A stretch of 64,000 nucleotides of DNA from contig CAMBNV010000003.1 in assembly GCA_945869195.1 (NCBI GenBank), forward strand, positions 186,001-250,000. Reading direction: 5' to 3'. The notes under the pieces are model-generated. The model was not told the DNA's origin, searched no databases, and worked only from the letters and a program-made list of their open reading frames with translations. Numbering within the stretch: position 1 is the stretch's first letter; the number at the start of each line of letters is the position of its first letter. Below are positions 44,655 to 52,962 of the stretch, in pieces. The translations under genes were made by a program, and so were the position numbers. This DNA is from Gemmatimonas phototrophica. Its GTDB lineage: Bacteria > Gemmatimonadota > Gemmatimonadetes > Gemmatimonadales > Gemmatimonadaceae.

Positions 44655-44729
44655 CGTGGACACTCGGGAGAATGGTGCGTGTATCGAATAGGGTAGCGCG
44701 GTCAGCCACGACTCTCCAAGTTGGTGCAC

Positions 44730-47018
44730 ATGCGCTTCTCCCTCCGCTCCCATCTCGTTATTGTCGCGCTCCTTCCCGCGGCCCTCCTAGCTCAAGCGCC
44801 GCGCGCCATCACTCCGGCCGATCTCCTCCGCCTCCGCGCCGTCGGTGACCCGCGGGTCTCTCCCGACGGCGAGTGGGTTGCGTACACGGTAAGCACCGTC
44901 GACTCCACGCGCGACCAGCGCGACACCGACGTGCACATGGTGCGCTGGGACGGCTCACGCACCGTGCGCCTCACCGCGACCACCGCGCGCGAGTCGCAAC
45001 CGCGATGGAGTCCCGACGGCCGCTATCTCGCGTTCGTTTCGGCGCGCGGCGACGCGAGTGCGGCGCAGATCTGGCTCCTCGATCGCTCCGGTGGCGATGC
45101 GCAACGGCTCACCGACCTCCCCGAAGGCGTGAACGAGTACGCCTGGTCCCCCGATGGCACGCGCATCGTCGTCGTCACGCAGGACGCCGACTCCGCCGCG
45201 CGCGCCGACACGACCCGTCCGCGCCCGATCGTCATCGATCGATTCCTCAGCAAGCGTGACGGCGACGGCTGGCTCGACGGGCGCCGCACGCACCTGCACC
45301 TGATCGACCTCGCGACCAAGACGACCACGCGACTCACTGCTGGCGCCGCCGATGATCGCGAACCCGCCTGGTCCCCCGATGGTCAATGGGTCGCATTCAC
45401 GAGTGCGCGCCACACCGACGAGGATCGCACTGAGGACTCAGACCTCTACGTGATCGACGCTCGCGCACACGCGAGTGCCGAACCGCGACGGCTGACGAGT
45501 GCACCTACCTACGAGCGTTCGCCAGCCTGGAGCCCCGACGGGAAGTGGATTGCGTTCTTGCAAGGGACATTCGTGCCGGTGCCCATGTACGGGACGTCGC
45601 GAGTGACTGTGATCGCGGCCGAGGGCGGCACGCCGCGCGTGCTCGCGCCGACGCTCGACCGACCGCAGCAGGCGCCGACCTGGACGGACGACGGCGCGGC
45701 GCTGCTCACCGTGCTCGACGATGATCGCCGCGGGCCGCTCGTCCGACTCGCCCTCACTGACGGTTCTCTCACGCACGTAGTAGATGGCATGCGCGTCGTG
45801 GAGAGCGTGCATCAGGCGAAGGGTCATGTGACGATCCTGCTCACCGACCCAGCGACGCCGGCCGAGATCTATGCGTTGGACGCCGCTGGTCCGCGTCGAC
45901 TCACACACGAGAACGACGCCTGGCGCGCCACCGTGCGCACAGCGCCCCTGGAGGAGTTCGAGTCGCGCAGTCGAGACGGTACAGTGGTGCGCGGCCTGCT
46001 CGCGCGCGCGCCCCACGTGCCAGCGGGACGACCGAACAGGACGGTGCTCTGGATCCACGGCGGGCCGGTCGCCCAGAATGATCACGCCTTTTGGCTCGAG
46101 CGCGAGGCGCTCGTGGCTGCGGGGTGGCATGTGCTCCAGATCAACTATCGCGGCTCGAGTGGACGCGGCGAAGCATTTCAACGTGCCATCTACGCCGATT
46201 GGTGCGGCAAGGAAATCGAGGACCTACTCGCCGCGGTCGATCAGGCCGTGCGCAGTGGCATCGCCGACCCAGAGCGGCTCGCGGTCGGTGGCTGGAGCTA
46301 TGGTGGCATTCTCACCGACTGTCTCATCGCGTCCACTCCGCGGTTCAAGGCGGCGGTGAGCGGGGCAGGGAGCTCGCTCTTCATGTCGACGTACGGCACC
46401 GATCAGTACGCGGCACAGTACGAAGCAGAACTCGGGGTGCCGTGGAAGACCCCGAAAGTGTGGGAGAAGGTGTCGTACGCATTCTTCCAGGCCGACCGGA
46501 TCCGCACGCCAACGTTGTTCATGGGCGGCGCCGACGACTTCAATGTGCCGATCGCCGGGTCGGAGCAGATGTATCAGGCGCTGCGCTCACTGGGGGTCCC
46601 CACGCAGCTGGTGGTGTATCCGGGAGAGCATCACGGGATCACACGGCCGAGCTTTGCGGTCGATCGCGCGACGCGGTGGATCGAGTGGCTCGATCGGTGG
46701 GTGCCGCGCCGTGTCTCGGCTCATCCCGCAGCTATCCAAGAACCGCGTCCTCGGCGACCTCACCTGCCGGCCTCGTCAGCGACAGGGGGGTCGAGTCCCC
46801 CAAATCTCCTCCAAAAGGAGCCGCTAGTTGGTCGCCCGCACGCATCGAGGTGCGAAGATCCCGGCGCGTCGGTTAGCGGCGGTGGGTTCAGGCCCCACCT
46901 GTCGTTCGGGGTGACGAGGGGCGCGCCCGTCTGGCCTACGCGAGCGTTCCAAGTTGATGCAACAACGCGCCCGCCGACTGGATGCGCATCGACACATCTT
47001 TGGCAAGCAACTGCATGA
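44730..47018 (+). CDS. Secreted S9-family prolyl oligopeptidase-like peptidase with aberrant C terminus
   Basis: A signal peptide (VIVALLPAALLAQA) starts this 762-residue frame from ATG 44730; TTG 44721 is upstream. A beta-propeller with PD40-type WSPDG repeats fills about residues 40-370, and an alpha/beta-hydrolase domain follows. The triad is S523 (GGWSYGG), D603 (ADDFNVP) and H634/H635 (GEHHGI). The family end is near WIEWLDRW (about residue 658). The last ~100 residues are Pro/Arg/Ser-rich, resemble no S9 sequence, run through the tRNA-like hairpin at 46785 and overlap the kinase gene antisense by 83 bases. The original stop was probably lost by rearrangement. Confidence 0.88.
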   Translation: MRFSLRSHLVIVALLPAALLAQAPRAITPADLLRLRAVGDPRVSPDGEWVAYTVSTVDSTRDQRDTDVHMVRWDGSRTVRLTATTARESQPRWSPDGRYLAFVSARGDASAAQIWLLDRSGGDAQRLTDLPEGVNEYAWSPDGTRIVVVTQDADSAARADTTRPRPIVIDRFLSKRDGDGWLDGRRTHLHLIDLATKTTTRLTAGAADDREPAWSPDGQWVAFTSARHTDEDRTEDSDLYVIDARAHASAEPRRLTSAPTYERSPAWSPDGKWIAFLQGTFVPVPMYGTSRVTVIAAEGGTPRVLAPTLDRPQQAPTWTDDGAALLTVLDDDRRGPLVRLALTDGSLTHVVDGMRVVESVHQAKGHVTILLTDPATPAEIYALDAAGPRRLTHENDAWRATVRTAPLEEFESRSRDGTVVRGLLARAPHVPAGRPNRTVLWIHGGPVAQNDHAFWLEREALVAAGWHVLQINYRGSSGRGEAFQRAIYADWCGKEIEDLLAAVDQAVRSGIADPERLAVGGWSYGGILTDCLIASTPRFKAAVSGAGSSLFMSTYGTDQYAAQYEAELGVPWKTPKVWEKVSYAFFQADRIRTPTLFMGGADDFNVPIAGSEQMYQALRSLGVPTQLVVYPGEHHGITRPSFAVDRATRWIEWLDRWVPRRVSAHPAAIQEPRPRRPHLPASSATGGSSPPNLLQKEPLVGRPHASRCEDPGASVSGGGFRPHLSFGVTRGAPVWPTRAFQVDATTRPPTGCASTHLWQATA
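46785..46813 (+). other. tRNA T-arm/3'-end-like hairpin
   Basis: GGGGG-GTCGAGT-CCCCC forms a five-pair stem with a seven-base T-loop-like sequence, and TCTCCTCCA follows, like an acceptor 3' end. No 5' half, D-arm or anticodon arm lies upstream, so it is not a tRNA gene. A partial tRNA end beside a compositional shift can mark an old integration site, but the acceptor spacing is one base off. Confidence 0.3.
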
Positions 47019-48891
47019 CCAATGTCGAGACGTGCCGAGGAATGTCCGGACGCAACTCGTGGGGTGGTGTAATCGCGGCGCTCAGAATTTTTGAGATGAG
47101 AGCGACCGGCGATTTCCCCTCAAACGGCGGTCGGCCGATGAGACATTCATAGAGGACAACCCCCGCCGCATACAGGTCACTGCGCGCATCAACGTTTTCG
47201 TCCAACAGTTGCTCGGGTGACATATAGGTTGGTGTACCCACCACCATACCGACCTGCGTCAGATTGTTGCTGGTGCGCTGGACGAGGCGCGCGACCCCAA
47301 AATCCATCACCTTGAGCGTGCCGGTTGCGTCGAGCAGCAAGTTCTGCGGTTTGATATCGCGATGGATAATCCCTTCATCGTGCGCACATTTCAGCGCCTC
47401 GGCGAGTTGCTTCGCGATCGCTAACATTGCCGTCGTTCCTAACGTACCGCGGCGATCGATCACCGAGCGGAGTGTCGTGCCCTCCACGAACTCCATGGTG
47501 ACGTAGTATATGTCGTCTGTTTTCCCAAAGTCATGCGTCCGCACGATATTGCGATGGGCAATGCGGCGCGCGAGCCGGATTTCATTCCGGAAGCGTTCCA
47601 TCGCTGTTTCGTCGGCCGTGAGATGCTCTGGCAACAGCGTTTTGATGGCCACGCGCTCGCCGAGTTCCGTGTCGAGCGCGAGATACACCACGCCCATGCC
47701 TCCACGCCCAATGACACGCTCAATGGAAAAGCGGGAGGCAATGGTCGATCCCGGTTGCAGAAGCTCGGGCGACGATGCGTCCGATGTGACTGGCTCGTCA
47801 CTGACTCCGGCGATTTCTTCACGCAGTCTATCGATCTGTCCCCGCAACCGTTCTTCGCGGTCGCGAATCCCCGCGACCATGCTATCGAACACACGCGCGA
47901 GTGTCCCCAATTCGTCGGCGCGGAGCGAGATCTCGGTGAGTGAGCCGGCGCTGTAGCTCCCTCTTTCCACCTCAACGGCGGCCGCGACCACGCGAAGGAC
48001 GTCGTGCATGAATAACCGTTCGCGGTCTCGCAACTCTCGCTTTTCAAGACACGCGCTGATACGGGCTCTGAGGAGGACCGGGTCGAATGGCTTAGGCAGA
48101 TAGTCTTCAGCGCCCCGTTCAATGCATTTGACGATCATCGCCAATTCGTCTAAGGCAGAAATCATGATCACGGGAATGTCGCGTGTCTGGTCCTTCGCCT
48201 TGAGCTGCTGCAGTGTCTCGTAGCCGTCCATGTCCGGCATGATGACATCGAGTAATACCATGTCATAGCCGCCCTCCGCCGCCAGCGCGAGCGCCTCCCT
48301 CCCACTCTCCGCACACACCACCGTGTGGCCTTCACGTTGCAAGCGGCGCTGCAAGACACCGCGATTCTCCTCGATGTCGTCGACCACCAAGATCCGGGCC
48401 ACACCGTGTGTGCGCGGGGCCGTGGGCATCTGATAGTCAGCGGTGAAGGCGGGCCTGGCGACTTCAAAGGTGCTCGTCGGCTCGGCGCGGCGTCTGTCAC
48501 TGGGAATCAGCCGTTCAGCTGCCTCGCGAATGCGACGCACATCGCCAATGTACTCCGCGGTGTCGGCCGCCTTGCCATTCGCCAGCAATGAACTCATGGC
48601 AGTTAAGATTCGTGCTTGCGGATCCCGAATCGCATCGTAAAGGCCGGGCACCGCTTTGGGGTCGAGCACGGTCACACCGGCGGGCAGGCTGGCGTCAATC
48701 AGCGACGTGACACTCCGCGATGCGTGAAGCGCATCAATCAATGCTTGCTGGCGGTGCGTAAAATCAGGCTCATGAGCATCCTCCAGCAGCATTTCACAGT
48801 AGCCGATAATCTGATTGACCGGGGTGCGAAGGTCGTGCCGCAAACGCGCCACTTCGCTGACGGCCTGATGGGAGGCTCCGCTGTGCGTCAT
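46936..48891 (-). CDS. HisKA-receiver-Ser/Thr protein kinase fusion
   Basis: This 651-residue cytoplasmic protein has, in order: a HisKA-like phosphoacceptor helix (RHDLRTPVNQIIGYCEML, H19); a receiver (phospho-acceptor D215 in LLDVIMPDMDG, K267 in LPKPFD); a HAMP-like linker (about 320-350); and a eukaryote-like Ser/Thr kinase (GRGGMGVVYLA, K417, HRD 510-512, DFG 530). No HATPase_c domain is present, so it cannot phosphorylate its own His and must receive phosphate from a partner. It is the last gene of the binding-protein/hybrid-kinase/receiver operon, five bases after the receiver gene. The kinase core looks active. The 3' end overlaps the S9 gene antisense by 83 bases. Confidence 0.9.
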   Translation of the reverse strand: MTHSGASHQAVSEVARLRHDLRTPVNQIIGYCEMLLEDAHEPDFTHRQQALIDALHASRSVTSLIDASLPAGVTVLDPKAVPGLYDAIRDPQARILTAMSSLLANGKAADTAEYIGDVRRIREAAERLIPSDRRRAEPTSTFEVARPAFTADYQMPTAPRTHGVARILVVDDIEENRGVLQRRLQREGHTVVCAESGREALALAAEGGYDMVLLDVIMPDMDGYETLQQLKAKDQTRDIPVIMISALDELAMIVKCIERGAEDYLPKPFDPVLLRARISACLEKRELRDRERLFMHDVLRVVAAAVEVERGSYSAGSLTEISLRADELGTLARVFDSMVAGIRDREERLRGQIDRLREEIAGVSDEPVTSDASSPELLQPGSTIASRFSIERVIGRGGMGVVYLALDTELGERVAIKTLLPEHLTADETAMERFRNEIRLARRIAHRNIVRTHDFGKTDDIYYVTMEFVEGTTLRSVIDRRGTLGTTAMLAIAKQLAEALKCAHDEGIIHRDIKPQNLLLDATGTLKVMDFGVARLVQRTSNNLTQVGMVVGTPTYMSPEQLLDENVDARSDLYAAGVVLYECLIGRPPFEGKSPVALISKILSAAITPPHELRPDIPRHVSTLVMQLLAKDVSMRIQSAGALLHQLGTLA

Positions 48892-48896
48892 CCGCG

Positions 48897-49265
48897 CTAC
48901 CGCGGACCAATGAGCGCGGCAATTTTTCCAAGCAAGCTGTCGAGGTCGACAGGCTTCGTGTCATAGTCATCGCAGCCGGCCTCGATTGCCTTCGCCCGAT
49001 CGCCCGCCATCGCATGGGCGCTCAATCCTATGATGGGAATGTGTGCCGTTGCGGGATCTGCCTTCAGCTCGGAGGTCGCCTGCCACCCGTCTTTTCGCGG
49101 AAGGCTCATATCCATGAGGATCAAATCAGGAAGCGAACTGTGCGCGATCTCTACGCCCTCGACTCCGTCCACCGCCACAGTGATCTCATATCCCCGTTTC
49201 ACGAGACGGCGACTGAGCATGTCTCGATTGAGTTCGTTGTCCTCGACCAGCAGTATGCGAGTCAT
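48897..49265 (-). CDS. Single-domain response regulator
   Basis: This 122-residue protein is one complete CheY-like receiver: acidic pair in LLVEDNELN, phospho-acceptor D52 in LMDMSLPRKDG, and the conserved Thr/Ser-Lys positions in GLSAHAM and YDTKPVD. No output domain is attached. It lies three bases after the hybrid kinase gene and five before the kinase fusion, which fits a phosphotransfer shuttle between them. Confidence 0.94.
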   Translation of the reverse strand: MTRILLVEDNELNRDMLSRRLVKRGYEITVAVDGVEGVEIAHSSLPDLILMDMSLPRKDGWQATSELKADPATAHIPIIGLSAHAMAGDRAKAIEAGCDDYDTKPVDLDSLLGKIAALIGPR

Positions 49266-49268
49266 GTG

Positions 49269-51629
49269 TTAGACGATGTTATGTGGTGTGTTCGCCGCGT
49301 TGGCCCGCTCGAGTGCCTGCCAGACTTCCTTCACCACTTCGTTCGTGTGGCCACCCTTTTGCAGCACATTGTCGACGCTGCCGCGCAGACGCTGGCGGTC
49401 CTGATTCGTGAGGTCTTTCGCCGTGTGCACCACCACCGGAATGTCGCGTCCCGTTGAACGGCTGCGCAGTTGCTGAATAAACTCGAAGCCGTCCATCACA
49501 GGCATCATAAGGTCCAAGAGCACGAGGCTTGGCGGACTGCTCTCTATCGCCGCCAGGGCAACACTGCCGTTCTCTGCCTCCGCAACGGTCCAGCCTTCCT
49601 TTTCGAACAGCCGGCGCATCAGCTTCCGGGCATCGGCATCGTCTTCCACGATCAGTACATTCTTGCGCCCCGGCGTCGAGCGCACGCGGCGCAATACTTC
49701 GTACAGATGTTCGCGGTCGATGGGTTTGGTGATGTAGCCGGCCGCTCCAAGCGATACACTCAAGTTCCGGTCGTCAATGATGGTAGCCACGACCACGGGG
49801 ATAGCGGCGAGCGCGGGATTTGCCTTCAGTTTCGAGAGCACCGCCCAGCCATCCATTCCCGGCATCATAATGTCGAGCGTGATGACGTCGGGTGTGACGT
49901 CAGCGGCAATGCGCAACCCCTCGGGTCCATTCGCGGCGGTGATCACGCGATATCCGTCCTTGACGAGCATGCGGCTAATCATGTCGCGGGCCGTTGGCTC
50001 ATCATCGATGACGAGCACCGTGGCCGCGTTCGCATCGGACGACTCGCTCAGCACACCCGTACTGTCCGTCGGGTGCTCGGACGAGAGCGGGGAATTGGGC
50101 AAGCGAATGGTGAAGGTGGTCCCACGTCCGAGTTCACTTTCGACCGTCACGCTCCCACCCATCAATTCGGCAAGGTGTTTCGTGATCGCTAAACCAAGGC
50201 CTGTACCACCGAACCGTTTTGTGGTGGATGACTCGGCCTGCATAAACGGCTGGAAGAGCCGCGAAAGCTGTTCGGGTGACATCCCGATTCCCGTATCCCG
50301 TACCCGAAAGACAAAGACATCTTCACCTTTGAGCGCGACTTCCCGATCCACCGACATGGTCACGATACCATCTTTCGTGAACTTACTGGCGTTCGAAACT
50401 AGATTGAGCAGCATCTGTCGGACCTTCGTCTGGTCCGCATGGATAGTGCCCACGGTGGCCAGCACATTCACGGTGAGGGAGTTCGTGTTTTTATCCAAGA
50501 GCGGCTGTACGGTTTCGGCCACGTCTTGTATGAGCTGAGTAACATCGAATGTTTCGAGAAACATTTCCATGCGGCCAGCTTCGATTTTGGTGAGGTCGAG
50601 AATGTCGTTGATAAGGCCAAGTAAGTGCTTGCCGGAATTGCGGATCTTGTTGAGGTCCGGCAGATAATCGGAATGGCCGGAATCCTTCGCATCCTCACTC
50701 AGGATTTCGCTATAGCCGATGATCGCATTGAGTGGCGTGCGGAGTTCATGGCTCATGTTCGCCAGGAACTCGCTCTTGGTTTGATTCGCGGCATCTGCCA
50801 GAATCTTGGCCTCTTCGAGTTCTGCTGTGCGCTGCTTCATCGCATCTAGCAGTGCGCTCAGGCGATGCCGGGTATTCGCAAAGGCCTGGGCCAGCACCTC
50901 GTATTCCGCCGCACCACTGATCTCAGCGGTCAAGTTGCTGGGCCGCAAGTCGCCTTCGCCGAGCGCGACGAGATCACGAGTAAGCGCTGCAAGCGGTCGC
51001 GTCACCGCCTTGGCGGTGGTGACGCTGGAGAGGAAGCCGACGGCAAGGGCGGCAATAATGACAAAGCCTAACATGCGCAGGTCCCCGGCGAGCTCGGCGG
51101 CAAGCAATGCCTCGCGCGTATCAAGCCGAATAGCGCCTTCTGCACGCAGCGCTTTCAGCGTGGCGTCCAAGTCGTCCAGCAACTCCGCATTCTTTGCCAT
51201 TTCCGTGGCGGCAGCGTCCACTCGACCCAAGACCCTTTGCGCGTGCGCAACGGCCACGCCTATCTCGATGCGGCTTTGCAGGAGTCCGAGTTCCTCCAGC
51301 TTCTGACGCTCAACTGTTGAGAGTTGCGCCAGGTTTACCGCAATGCGACGCAGGCTGTCTGCTTGCTCGCCTAGGAGCCAGTACGTCGCTTCGTCGGTCC
51401 TGTTGCCAGTGGTGATGTATGCAAACCCGGCAGCACTCTCGCGCAGCATATACAACGCCACCTGCTGGATGGCTTCCTGCTGGGTGCGCAGCTCGATCAC
51501 GAGGTCGCGGTTCTGTTTTCCGCGCCGCTGCATGTTGGTGCCAGCAAAAAGTCCAGCGGAAAGCAGCAGCGCTAACGTCAGTCCAAAGCCAAAGCGCAGG
51601 CGAGCGCGAATCGTGGGAAGGCGCATCAT
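49269..51629 (-). CDS. Hybrid sensor histidine kinase with two receivers
   Basis: This 786-residue membrane protein has an N-terminal segment (about 12-31), an extracytoplasmic helical sensor region (about 32-185, CHASE3-like), a second segment (about 187-203), HAMP, HisKA (H294 in [15 protein letters not shown]), HATPase_c (N box [13 protein letters not shown]1 DTGIGM, G2 GGTGLGL), then receiver 1 (D586) and receiver 2 (D706). Its start overlaps the stop of the binding-lipoprotein gene by four bases, linking the two. The helical sensor domain could read the state of that lipoprotein; this is inference. Confidence 0.94.
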
Positions 51630-52741
51630 TTGCCCACCCGCTTGATGAGCGCCGACTTTTGTACATCGTGTCGAGCATCGAAGGCGAGGGGACCACCAAT
51701 GCCCTCGTAGGCTGGAAGGTCCTTGCCCACGGACTCGATGTAATCGCGGATTTTTGCTCGATCAGGACCGACGGCTCTCGCGGCGCGCCCAATAAGCATT
51801 GCCGCGTCAAACGCCATCGCGGCGCCTTGATCGGGCACTGCTTTAAAGGCGGCGACGTAAGCTTTAACGAAGTCGTTCGCCCGCGGCGTTGCGAGCTTCT
51901 GGGCATTGAAAAACGCGAGGTACCACACTGAGGGAAACTCTGCCACATGCGCTTCCATACCCGACATATCGTCGCCTCCGACAATGGGGATTGTTACGCC
52001 AAGGGTTTTCAGGGCTCGTAACAGCTGAACAGCCCACGGTGGTCTGCCCGGAAGTACAATGACGTCTGGGTTCAGCTTTTTGACGTACGCGGCATACACG
52101 GCGAAGGTGAGCGAGTCACCGACGCTGACGGGAAGTGGACTGCGCGAAACGATCGTTCCCCCGCCGGCGCGGAACGCTTCGATAAAGATTTTTACGAAAT
52201 CGCGACCGTACGAGCTACTTTCGTAGACAACGCTGGCGCGTTTCAGTCGGAGAGTGTCGTGGAGAAACTGAGCGACAGTTTTCGCATTCTGATTGTCGTT
52301 GGGGGTCAGGCGGAACAACCACTTATCGAGGCCAGACAATCCAGGGCTCGTCGCTGTCGGCGAGATTGCTACGACGGCGTTGCGGCCAGCGTGTTCTTGG
52401 TCAGAGTACACGCCGACCGCTGCGTATGCCTCACCACTCGTGCGCGGACCGACCACGCCGATCACGTTCGGGTCATCACGCAAGTGATTTGCGATTGTAA
52501 TGGGATCCTCAAGATCTGGCGGAGCCGAAATCACGCGAAAGGTGGCTTGTCCCGCATGCTCGGCGTTCAAGAAGTTCACGGCGATCTGCGCACCGTACAT
52601 CAGATCGATACCCGCGTTGCCTACCTCGCGCGGATTGTAGGCCGCGCCAATCCCAAAGTCGTCGGTCGTGACCTTCGTGCCCGAGCAGCCGCCAACGAAC
52701 ACGGTAAGTCCTAATAGGGCAGTGAGTCCTTGTCTATTCAT
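51626..52741 (-). CDS. Orphan type 1 periplasmic binding lipoprotein (Leu/Ile/Val-type)
   Basis: From ATG 52739-52741 this 371-residue protein has a lipoprotein signal ([16 protein letters not shown], lipid Cys near residue 19) and a two-lobe PBP type 1 fold: [52 protein letters not shown] and [20 protein letters not shown]. These match LivJ-type and urea/amide binding proteins. No permease or ATPase genes are near; the next gene is the hybrid kinase, overlapping by four bases. A ligand-sensing role is therefore more likely than transport. In-frame sequence upstream to 52957 is not protein-like. Confidence 0.9.
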
Positions 52742-52962
52742 AGGTTGATCAGACGACCTGGTAGAAGACATTGTCTGCCGCAAATGGCCCTGTGTCCTAG
52801 TGCCGAACTTGTGGGGCGTTTTGTGCTTTGGCAAGTGGAGAATGGCACGCCACTTGTGCTTCGCAGAGGGGACCCTGGCCGAGACGGCGAGCGCTGACAA
52901 GCTCCGGATCGAGCCGCCACGGAGTTGATCGCGGCGTCGAGCGAGCGGAGCGCGCACCAGGC

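Follow-up and report, generated by a model that had tools for sequence, protein, structure and literature searches.

A predicted single-chain tandem HisKA module fused to a receiver and a Ser/Thr kinase: possible output end of a phosphorelay in Gemmatimonas phototrophica

Introduction

How could a single polypeptide that joins a histidine phospho-acceptor helix to a receiver and a eukaryote-like kinase be phosphorylated on its histidine, and to what end? The question is raised by a gene of Gemmatimonas phototrophica lying in a stretch of 64,000 nucleotides (contig CAMBNV010000003.1, positions 186,001 to 250,000), which we call the window and whose numbering is used throughout. The original prediction described the product, here called the effector, as a direct link between two-component and Ser/Thr signalling. 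The domains were named correctly and H19, D215, K267 and K417 are at the positions given; the description was incomplete in that it missed a degenerate second HisKA hairpin (residues 78-142), a HAMP-like coil (residues 286-365) and the operon, in which a hybrid histidine kinase and a single-domain receiver that could charge H19 are encoded immediately upstream.

Domain organization of the effector and its operon

The features of the locus are as follows.

46936..48891, minus strand: effector gene, 651 aa, ATG start, encoding tandem HisKA, receiver, HAMP-like coil and Ser/Thr kinase (ORF call and Pfam)
48688..48858, minus strand: HisKA hairpin 1 with H-box, residues 12-68 (Pfam HisKA at 14-66; hhalign to the operon HisKA, 99.6%)
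48835..48837, minus strand: codon of H19, the putative phospho-acceptor (His in 36/39 kinase-type rows and in 34/34 of the intact-box set)
48466..48660, minus strand: degenerate HisKA hairpin 2, residues 78-142, with D86 at the His position (hhalign 95%, score 41)
48037..48399, minus strand: receiver domain, residues 165-285, with D215 and K267 (Pfam and residue counts)
48247..48249, minus strand: codon of D215 (Asp in 37/37 rows)
47797..48036, minus strand: HAMP-like helical coil linking the receiver to the kinase, residues 286-365 (HAMP match under the cut-off; model helices 271-312 and 319-363)
46942..47751, minus strand: Hanks-type Ser/Thr kinase domain, residues 381-650 (Pkinase, 195.6 bits)
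48897..49265, minus strand: single-domain receiver, 122 aa, PleD/DivK-like, Asp 52, a candidate phosphoryl carrier, ending 5 nt before the effector (ORF call, Pfam and comparisons)
49269..51629, minus strand: hybrid histidine kinase with HAMP-like stretch, HisKA, HATPase_c and two receivers, ending 3 nt before the single-domain receiver (ORF call and Pfam)
51626..52957, minus strand: periplasmic binding protein (Peripla_BP_6), overlapping the start of the hybrid kinase by 4 nt (ORF call and Pfam)

Pfam detected HisKA (residues 14-66, 31.1 bits, E 2.5e-7, curated cut-off 26.9), Response_reg (residues 167-278, 101.7 bits) and Pkinase (residues 389-645, 195.6 bits) in the effector, together with a HAMP-like stretch at residues 298-343 whose 16.5 bits lie under the cut-off of 25. 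Neither HATPase_c nor Hpt (PF01627) was among the matches listed at E<=10, where most matches above about 0.1 had been dropped by the filters. No HATPase was thus found, in agreement with the original prediction, and from this we infer that H19 is unable to phosphorylate itself.

Conserved residues were counted over 37 rows, which, like the tree described below, leave out L161, whose reading frame is split, and L162, which runs into the end of its contig. D171, D172, D215, S245 and K267 are each present in all 37 rows, which together with the output domain identifies the effector as a response regulator. The kinase is of the Hanks type, with G395, K417, H510, R511, D512 and N517 in 37/37 rows and D530 of the DFG motif in 36/37. 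Receiver and Ser/Thr kinase are therefore intact, in agreement with the original prediction. The best matches of the kinase domain among PDB sequences were 9ymt and 4eqm, followed by PknB; when a model of the whole N-terminal part was used for structure comparison, receivers were among the matches listed, with PleD first.

The binding protein, hybrid kinase, single-domain receiver and effector genes look like one operon. The effector gene closes a conserved unit, in which it follows the genes of a histidine kinase (a hybrid one here) and a single-domain receiver. No Hpt domain appeared in the Pfam listing of the scanned operon proteins, and a single one was found in the genome at E<=0.001, on a different contig; the tandem HisKA could therefore take the place usually held by an Hpt domain. 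We considered the single-domain receiver as a FATGUY-type carrier and rejected this, since it has GLSAHAM at the motif site (the motif is given in the part of PMC9981736 available to us). The Y/F switch residue fails to distinguish a carrier from a terminal receiver: it is Tyr in 34/34 single-domain receivers, and in the 37 cis receivers, that is, those within the effector chain, it is Tyr in 20, Phe in 8, His in 8 and Leu in one.

Two observations concern the flanks of this unit. The Peripla_BP_6 protein (51626-52957), immediately ahead of the hybrid kinase, has a lipobox-like start (VGGC); among the fetched loci BLAST detected it in L159-L161, the closest relatives, and in no others, and it is possibly a ligand sensor or partner of the hybrid kinase. 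At the other end, a convergent S9-peptidase ORF on the plus strand (44721-47018) overlaps the last 83 bases of the effector gene (46936-47018). The last 100 or so residues of this ORF, beyond the Peptidase_S9 match (462-661 of 765), do not look like protein; a frameshift or an assembly error may thus have removed the true stop.

Distribution of the kinase-type effector

Near-full-length matches to effector residues 1-330, defined as those starting at query residue <=15 and ending at 329, were found in 10 of 61 close genomes, the effector's own included. With residues 1-307 as the query, 52 of the 395 genomes of a phylum sample gave any match at E<=1e-35, and some of these 52 matches lack HisKA or kinase; the exact architecture can thus fairly be called rare, as it was at the outset. 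We examined 50 loci with their flanks, 38 of them kinase-type and 12 with another output or none. The match in G257 was not among them, and that in G309 was added afterwards as locus L227.

His occupies position 19 in 36 of the 39 kinase-type rows (the 38 homologues and the window protein); L128 has Tyr instead, and L185 and L186 have no HisKA. The H-box is intact in 33 of the 38 homologues, and every one of these 33 has a single-domain receiver directly upstream. A histidine kinase is visible in 31 of the 33 loci, and the contigs of the other two end within the kinase gene. The five homologues whose box is not intact (L128, L183, L184, L185 and L186) all lack an adjacent single-domain receiver; L183 and L184 kept the His and lost both the Thr and Pro of the box and the receiver partner. 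Exclusion of these five by the H-box criterion leaves the intact set of 34 rows (33 homologues and the window) used below. In the tree, 32 intact rows form one group (96/92). The association of H-box and single-domain receiver accordingly counts as about one evolutionary change, and we dropped its reading as many independent losses.

In 15 of the 33 intact loci, two histidine kinases stand in tandem within the fetched stretch, upstream of the single-domain receiver (L119-L125, L163-L175). The kinase nearer to the receiver in these loci often has no receivers of its own.

A tandem of HisKA hairpins

As first proposed, the helix at the N-terminus is genuinely of the HisKA type, with H19 in its H-box: the Pfam match is over the cut-off, and profile comparison of hairpin 1 with the HisKA of the neighbouring kinases (hhalign) gave a probability of 99.6%. 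This hairpin is followed by no degenerate CA-like domain, but by a second HisKA-like hairpin and then by the receiver. Hairpin 2 aligned in register with the H-box of the same HisKA profile (probability 95%, score 41), the top score from 100 column shuffles being 17. In the 34 rows, L84 and P91 of hairpin 2 are invariant, and residue 86 is Asp in 13, Glu in 9, Ala in 4, Thr in 3, Arg in 2 and Gly, Gln and His in one each, that is, other than His in 33/34. The sole row with a His at the H-box position of hairpin 2 is the kinase-type L126 (L126:3159-5102). The loss of His from this hairpin is therefore incomplete, and the notion that hairpin 2 never carries His was dropped.

AlphaFold placed effector residues 4-126 in four helices, and residues 1-135 modelled alone formed a single-chain four-helix domain (pTM 0.80, from a three-row alignment). 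Foldseek returned no match to this bundle model at E<=0.001. VIA-align returned generic four-helix bundles, the best being pectin methylesterase inhibitor (Z 12.8 over 116 residues, rmsd 2.4), where a Z below about 13 says little for helical bundles. DHp or Hpt chains were not among the best 50 rows of the Foldseek and VIA-align lists. Against PDB sequences the module gave a weak match to DivL (4q20, E 0.026, residues 14-129). DHp bundles are usually built from two chains, and with the modest Z this makes the structure comparisons neutral as to a DHp fold. The N-terminus of the effector is best read as a single-chain pseudo-dimer, with two HisKA hairpins and, in the window protein, one phospho-acceptor. 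Its tandem origin is evident from the sequence comparisons, and the single-chain bundle is a prediction drawn from the models.

The helix bearing H19 (residues 15-40) is the best conserved of the parts compared in the intact set, with a mean pairwise identity of 74%, a value somewhat favoured by the choice of the set by the H-box itself. By the same measure helix 2 reaches 38%, the two helices of hairpin 2 reach 40% and 49%, and the receiver, the kinase and the single-domain receiver reach 67%, 63% and 71%, respectively. E33, E37 and D38, none of which was used in choosing the rows, are each present in 34/34. The residue following the His (H+1) is acidic in 32/34 rows, and H+4 is Thr in 34/34.

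Docking faces

Four positions of the HisKA face, counted from the His, are nearly invariant in the effectors: Tyr at +12 (97%), Glu at +14 (100%), Glu at +18 (100%) and Asp at +19 (100%). The same positions in 47 operon histidine kinases hold Tyr (100%), Glu (100%), Glu (100%) and Glu or Asp (97%). In 65 histidine kinases from other phyla we found Phe in 40% at +12, Gln in 32% and Glu in 22% at +14, and Arg in 38% at +18, where Arg, Lys, Gln and Asp are the most frequent residues. The genome encodes nine HisKA proteins, and the face Y+12/E+14/E+18/D+19 is present only in the adjacent histidine kinase and the effector and in none of the other seven. By pattern search the effector is also the sole one of the nine without HATPase-like motifs.

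Among the receivers, 34/34 single-domain and 28/34 cis receivers carry the alpha1 motif N[RK]xx[LM]x[RK][RK][LF]. It occurs in neither of the two receivers of the operon histidine kinases (0/30 each), in none of the 149 control receivers (150 were taken, of which one could not be parsed) and in 0/5 cis receivers from homologues whose box is not intact. These residue patterns are most simply read as one docking group, made up of both HisKA faces together with the single-domain and cis receivers, though the effector HisKA may retain its face through descent from the histidine kinase.

The alpha1 motif had also been considered as proof of docking to H19. This was dropped, as the motif occurs in five of eight receivers of HisKA-less effectors as well (L187, L188, L196, L198 and L228; not L190, L192 or L194). 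In its strict form it is present in 8 of 17 cis receivers of the other HisKA-bearing effectors. Its presence in HisKA-less effectors means that it may signal docking to the histidine kinase rather than to H19, in which case the kinase could charge D215 directly.

Possible phosphorelay and alternative explanations

The gene order histidine kinase - single-domain receiver - effector, with genes that overlap or nearly abut, supports a phosphorelay of which the effector would be the output end: kinase - free receiver - H19 - D215 - Ser/Thr kinase. The same reading is favoured by the H-box kept together with the upstream receiver, the conservation of the H19 helix, the matching docking faces, the tandem hairpin, the single Hpt domain of the genome and the cyclase-type units of verrucomicrobial genomes, and every step of it has a precedent in known systems (see below). 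We give this reading an even chance. The hybrid kinase (49269-51629) would charge the single-domain receiver (48897-49265) at D52, and the charged receiver would dock on the tandem-HisKA bundle and pass its phosphoryl group to H19. H19 would then give the group up to the effector's own receiver at D215, and the resulting change, transmitted by the HAMP-like coil, would switch the Ser/Thr kinase. Hairpin 2, its His lost, would fill the role that the partner subunit has in an ordinary DHp dimer, which would make the module a single-chain, one-histidine domain of the Spo0B/ChpT/PhyT type without a CA-like domain. Phosphotransfer, its direction and the control of the Ser/Thr kinase are steps that we infer.

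Certain features of the family fit this relay less well. The acidity of H+1 in 32/34 rows goes beyond what a relay alone needs and counts against it. So do the single evolutionary change behind the association of H-box and receiver, the His retained in L183 and L184 and in hairpin 2 of L126, and the loose link between H-box and receiver in relatives with other outputs (see below). There are also HisKA-less relatives that keep the operon; in the effector, too, D215 might therefore be charged by the kinase without an intermediate, which would leave the tandem HisKA as an added layer of control. Such direct charging is the core of the main alternative, which we consider unlikely. Here the histidine kinase would charge D215 itself, and the tandem HisKA would drain the phosphate away, acting as a phosphatase or returning the phosphate to the single-domain receiver, which would serve as a sink; the Ser/Thr kinase would thereby be turned off fast. 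An acidic H+1 combined with Thr at H+4 is the motif rule for HisKA phosphatases, and the intact set follows it closely. The alpha1 motif of the cis receiver would serve docking to the histidine kinase equally, and the HisKA-less relatives L187, L188 and L228 indicate that such receivers can function without the module. For HATPase-less HisKA proteins, the part of PMC5847659 available to us suggests a role in phosphotransfer or as phosphatase. A pure phosphatase, however, needs neither H19 nor the pairing with a single-domain receiver that is seen in 33/33 loci. A sink at H19 fits both H19 and the pairing as well as a relay does, so that the direction of transfer alone separates the two.

Contact without chemistry seems to us improbable. 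The phosphorylated single-domain receiver would bind the tandem HisKA and alter the Ser/Thr kinase by that contact, with no phosphotransfer, for which DivK-DivL is a precedent. The DivK/PleD-like character of the single-domain receiver, the shared docking face and the weak PDB sequence match between the module and DivL all agree with this. Yet Tyr replaces His in DivL, unlike the 36/39 kinase-type rows that keep the His, and the sole row with Tyr, L128, is without a single-domain receiver in the fetched stretch. Phosphorylation of H19 in trans by the ATPase domain of the histidine kinase through a mixed helix bundle, a split-kinase arrangement as in CheA3/CheA4, is the most remote of the explanations: helix 1 of the effector HisKA is indeed very similar to that of the kinase, but the tandem hairpin apparently completes the bundle within one chain and leaves no obvious room for a second partner, and H+1 is non-acidic in 2/34 rows and in L039, L040 and L219-L221, whereas it is Glu in 46/47 operon kinases, with a gap in the remaining one.

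If the relay through H19 and D215 is true, the effector would by itself connect His-Asp relays with eukaryote-like kinases. Its module would also be a natural single-chain DHp domain with one histidine in most members, and would show how far phosphotransfer and partner choice depend on the symmetry of the DHp dimer. The matching docking faces make the assignment of partners directly testable with a few purified proteins.

Comparison with known systems

One of the closest known systems is the Spo0F - Spo0B - Spo0A relay of Bacillus sporulation, in which a single-domain receiver, a kinase-inactive phosphotransferase of the DHp type and a receiver with an output are fed by histidine kinases. Here, by contrast, phosphotransferase and output are in one chain, the tandem bundle is likewise predicted to form within a single polypeptide, a CA-like domain is absent and a Ser/Thr kinase serves as the output. 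The bundle of Spo0B is described in the part of PMC3433190 at hand. That part also presents ChpT, of the CckA - ChpT - CtrA/CpdR pathway, as a DHp-type phosphotransferase that is incapable of autophosphorylation and has a four-helix bundle. ChpT is, on the same partial account, a homodimer with an atypical Bergerat fold, whereas the bundle of the effector is predicted to consist of a single chain, which continues into receiver and kinase.

In the alphaproteobacterial stress pathway Paks - SdrG - PhyT - PhyR, the phosphoryl group passes from the single-domain SdrG to PhyT and on to PhyR, according to the excerpt of PMC5898713 available. The arrangement is alike in that a single-domain receiver hands on to a degenerate kinase acting as phosphotransferase, which serves an output receiver. 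In the same excerpt PhyP, which we take to be PhyT, is predicted to be membrane-anchored and has an HRxxN motif and a degenerated ATPase domain. The effector differs in having a classical HisKA box, no ATPase remnant that we could find, and a fusion to receiver and output.

The archaeal 'HisKA, no HATPase' proteins and REC-HisKA response regulators share with the effector a conserved His and the missing HATPase, and some of them combine REC and HisKA (PMC5847659, in the portion available). A Ser/Thr kinase output, a tandem hairpin and a unit with a single-domain receiver are not described in that portion. A literature search on HATPase-less, tandem or pseudo-dimer HisKA, DHp-type phosphotransferases and receiver-Ser/Thr kinase fusions found no description of the architecture in the titles and abstracts listed, with subscription journals mostly outside its scope. 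Phosphotransfer of the DHp type is known, and what appears new is a single-chain, CA-less form fused to its own receiver and output.

Relatives with other outputs

The effector is one member of a recurring HisKA-receiver module with a variable output. A kinase or a cyclase follows the tandem, SpoIIE follows a single hairpin in L225, HATPase is present in L041 and L224, and L223 has no output. The idea that the module is restricted to kinase outputs was dropped once cyclase and other outputs had been found. We tentatively propose, with slightly less than even confidence, a family in which a single-chain, half-dead tandem HisKA acts as a monomeric His phosphotransferase fused to the receiver that it serves, while the outputs, Ser/Thr kinase and cyclase among them, are interchangeable. 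The form with a kinase would take up phosphate on His, move it to Asp and convert it into Ser/Thr phosphorylation, all within one polypeptide.

Among the cyclase-type proteins, Pfam found two HisKA stretches in L039, L040, L193 and L197. The His is missing from one of the two hairpins in L039, L040 and L197, and the order of the hairpins is reversed in L189. The HisKA-receiver part of L039 was matched at E<=1e-40 in 8 of 240 verrucomicrobial genomes, in six of them over nearly the full query. The verrucomicrobial loci L219-L222 have the order kinase - single-domain receiver - tandem HisKA - receiver - cyclase; Pfam detected only their first HisKA, and the second was recognized through BLAST to L040.

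Outside the kinase type, H-box and single-domain receiver are only loosely linked. L189, L193, L197 and L227 have an intact His and no single-domain receiver adjoining upstream; L195 has the single-domain receiver and a His in neither hairpin; and L228 has the order histidine kinase - single-domain receiver - receiver-cyclase, without HisKA.

Two further arrangements were observed. In L193 (L193:3991-6186), an N-terminal extension with hydrophobic stretches precedes a tandem HisKA that keeps both histidines, a receiver and a cyclase; this is possibly the ancestral state of the half-dead tandem. In L225 (L225:3927-5423) and in the Armatimonadetes locus L041 (L041:9877-11328, with the order HisKA-receiver-HisKA-HATPase), single-hairpin HisKA-receiver proteins with SpoIIE and HisKA-HATPase, respectively, adjoin a single-domain receiver, and these may be dimeric versions of the tandem module.
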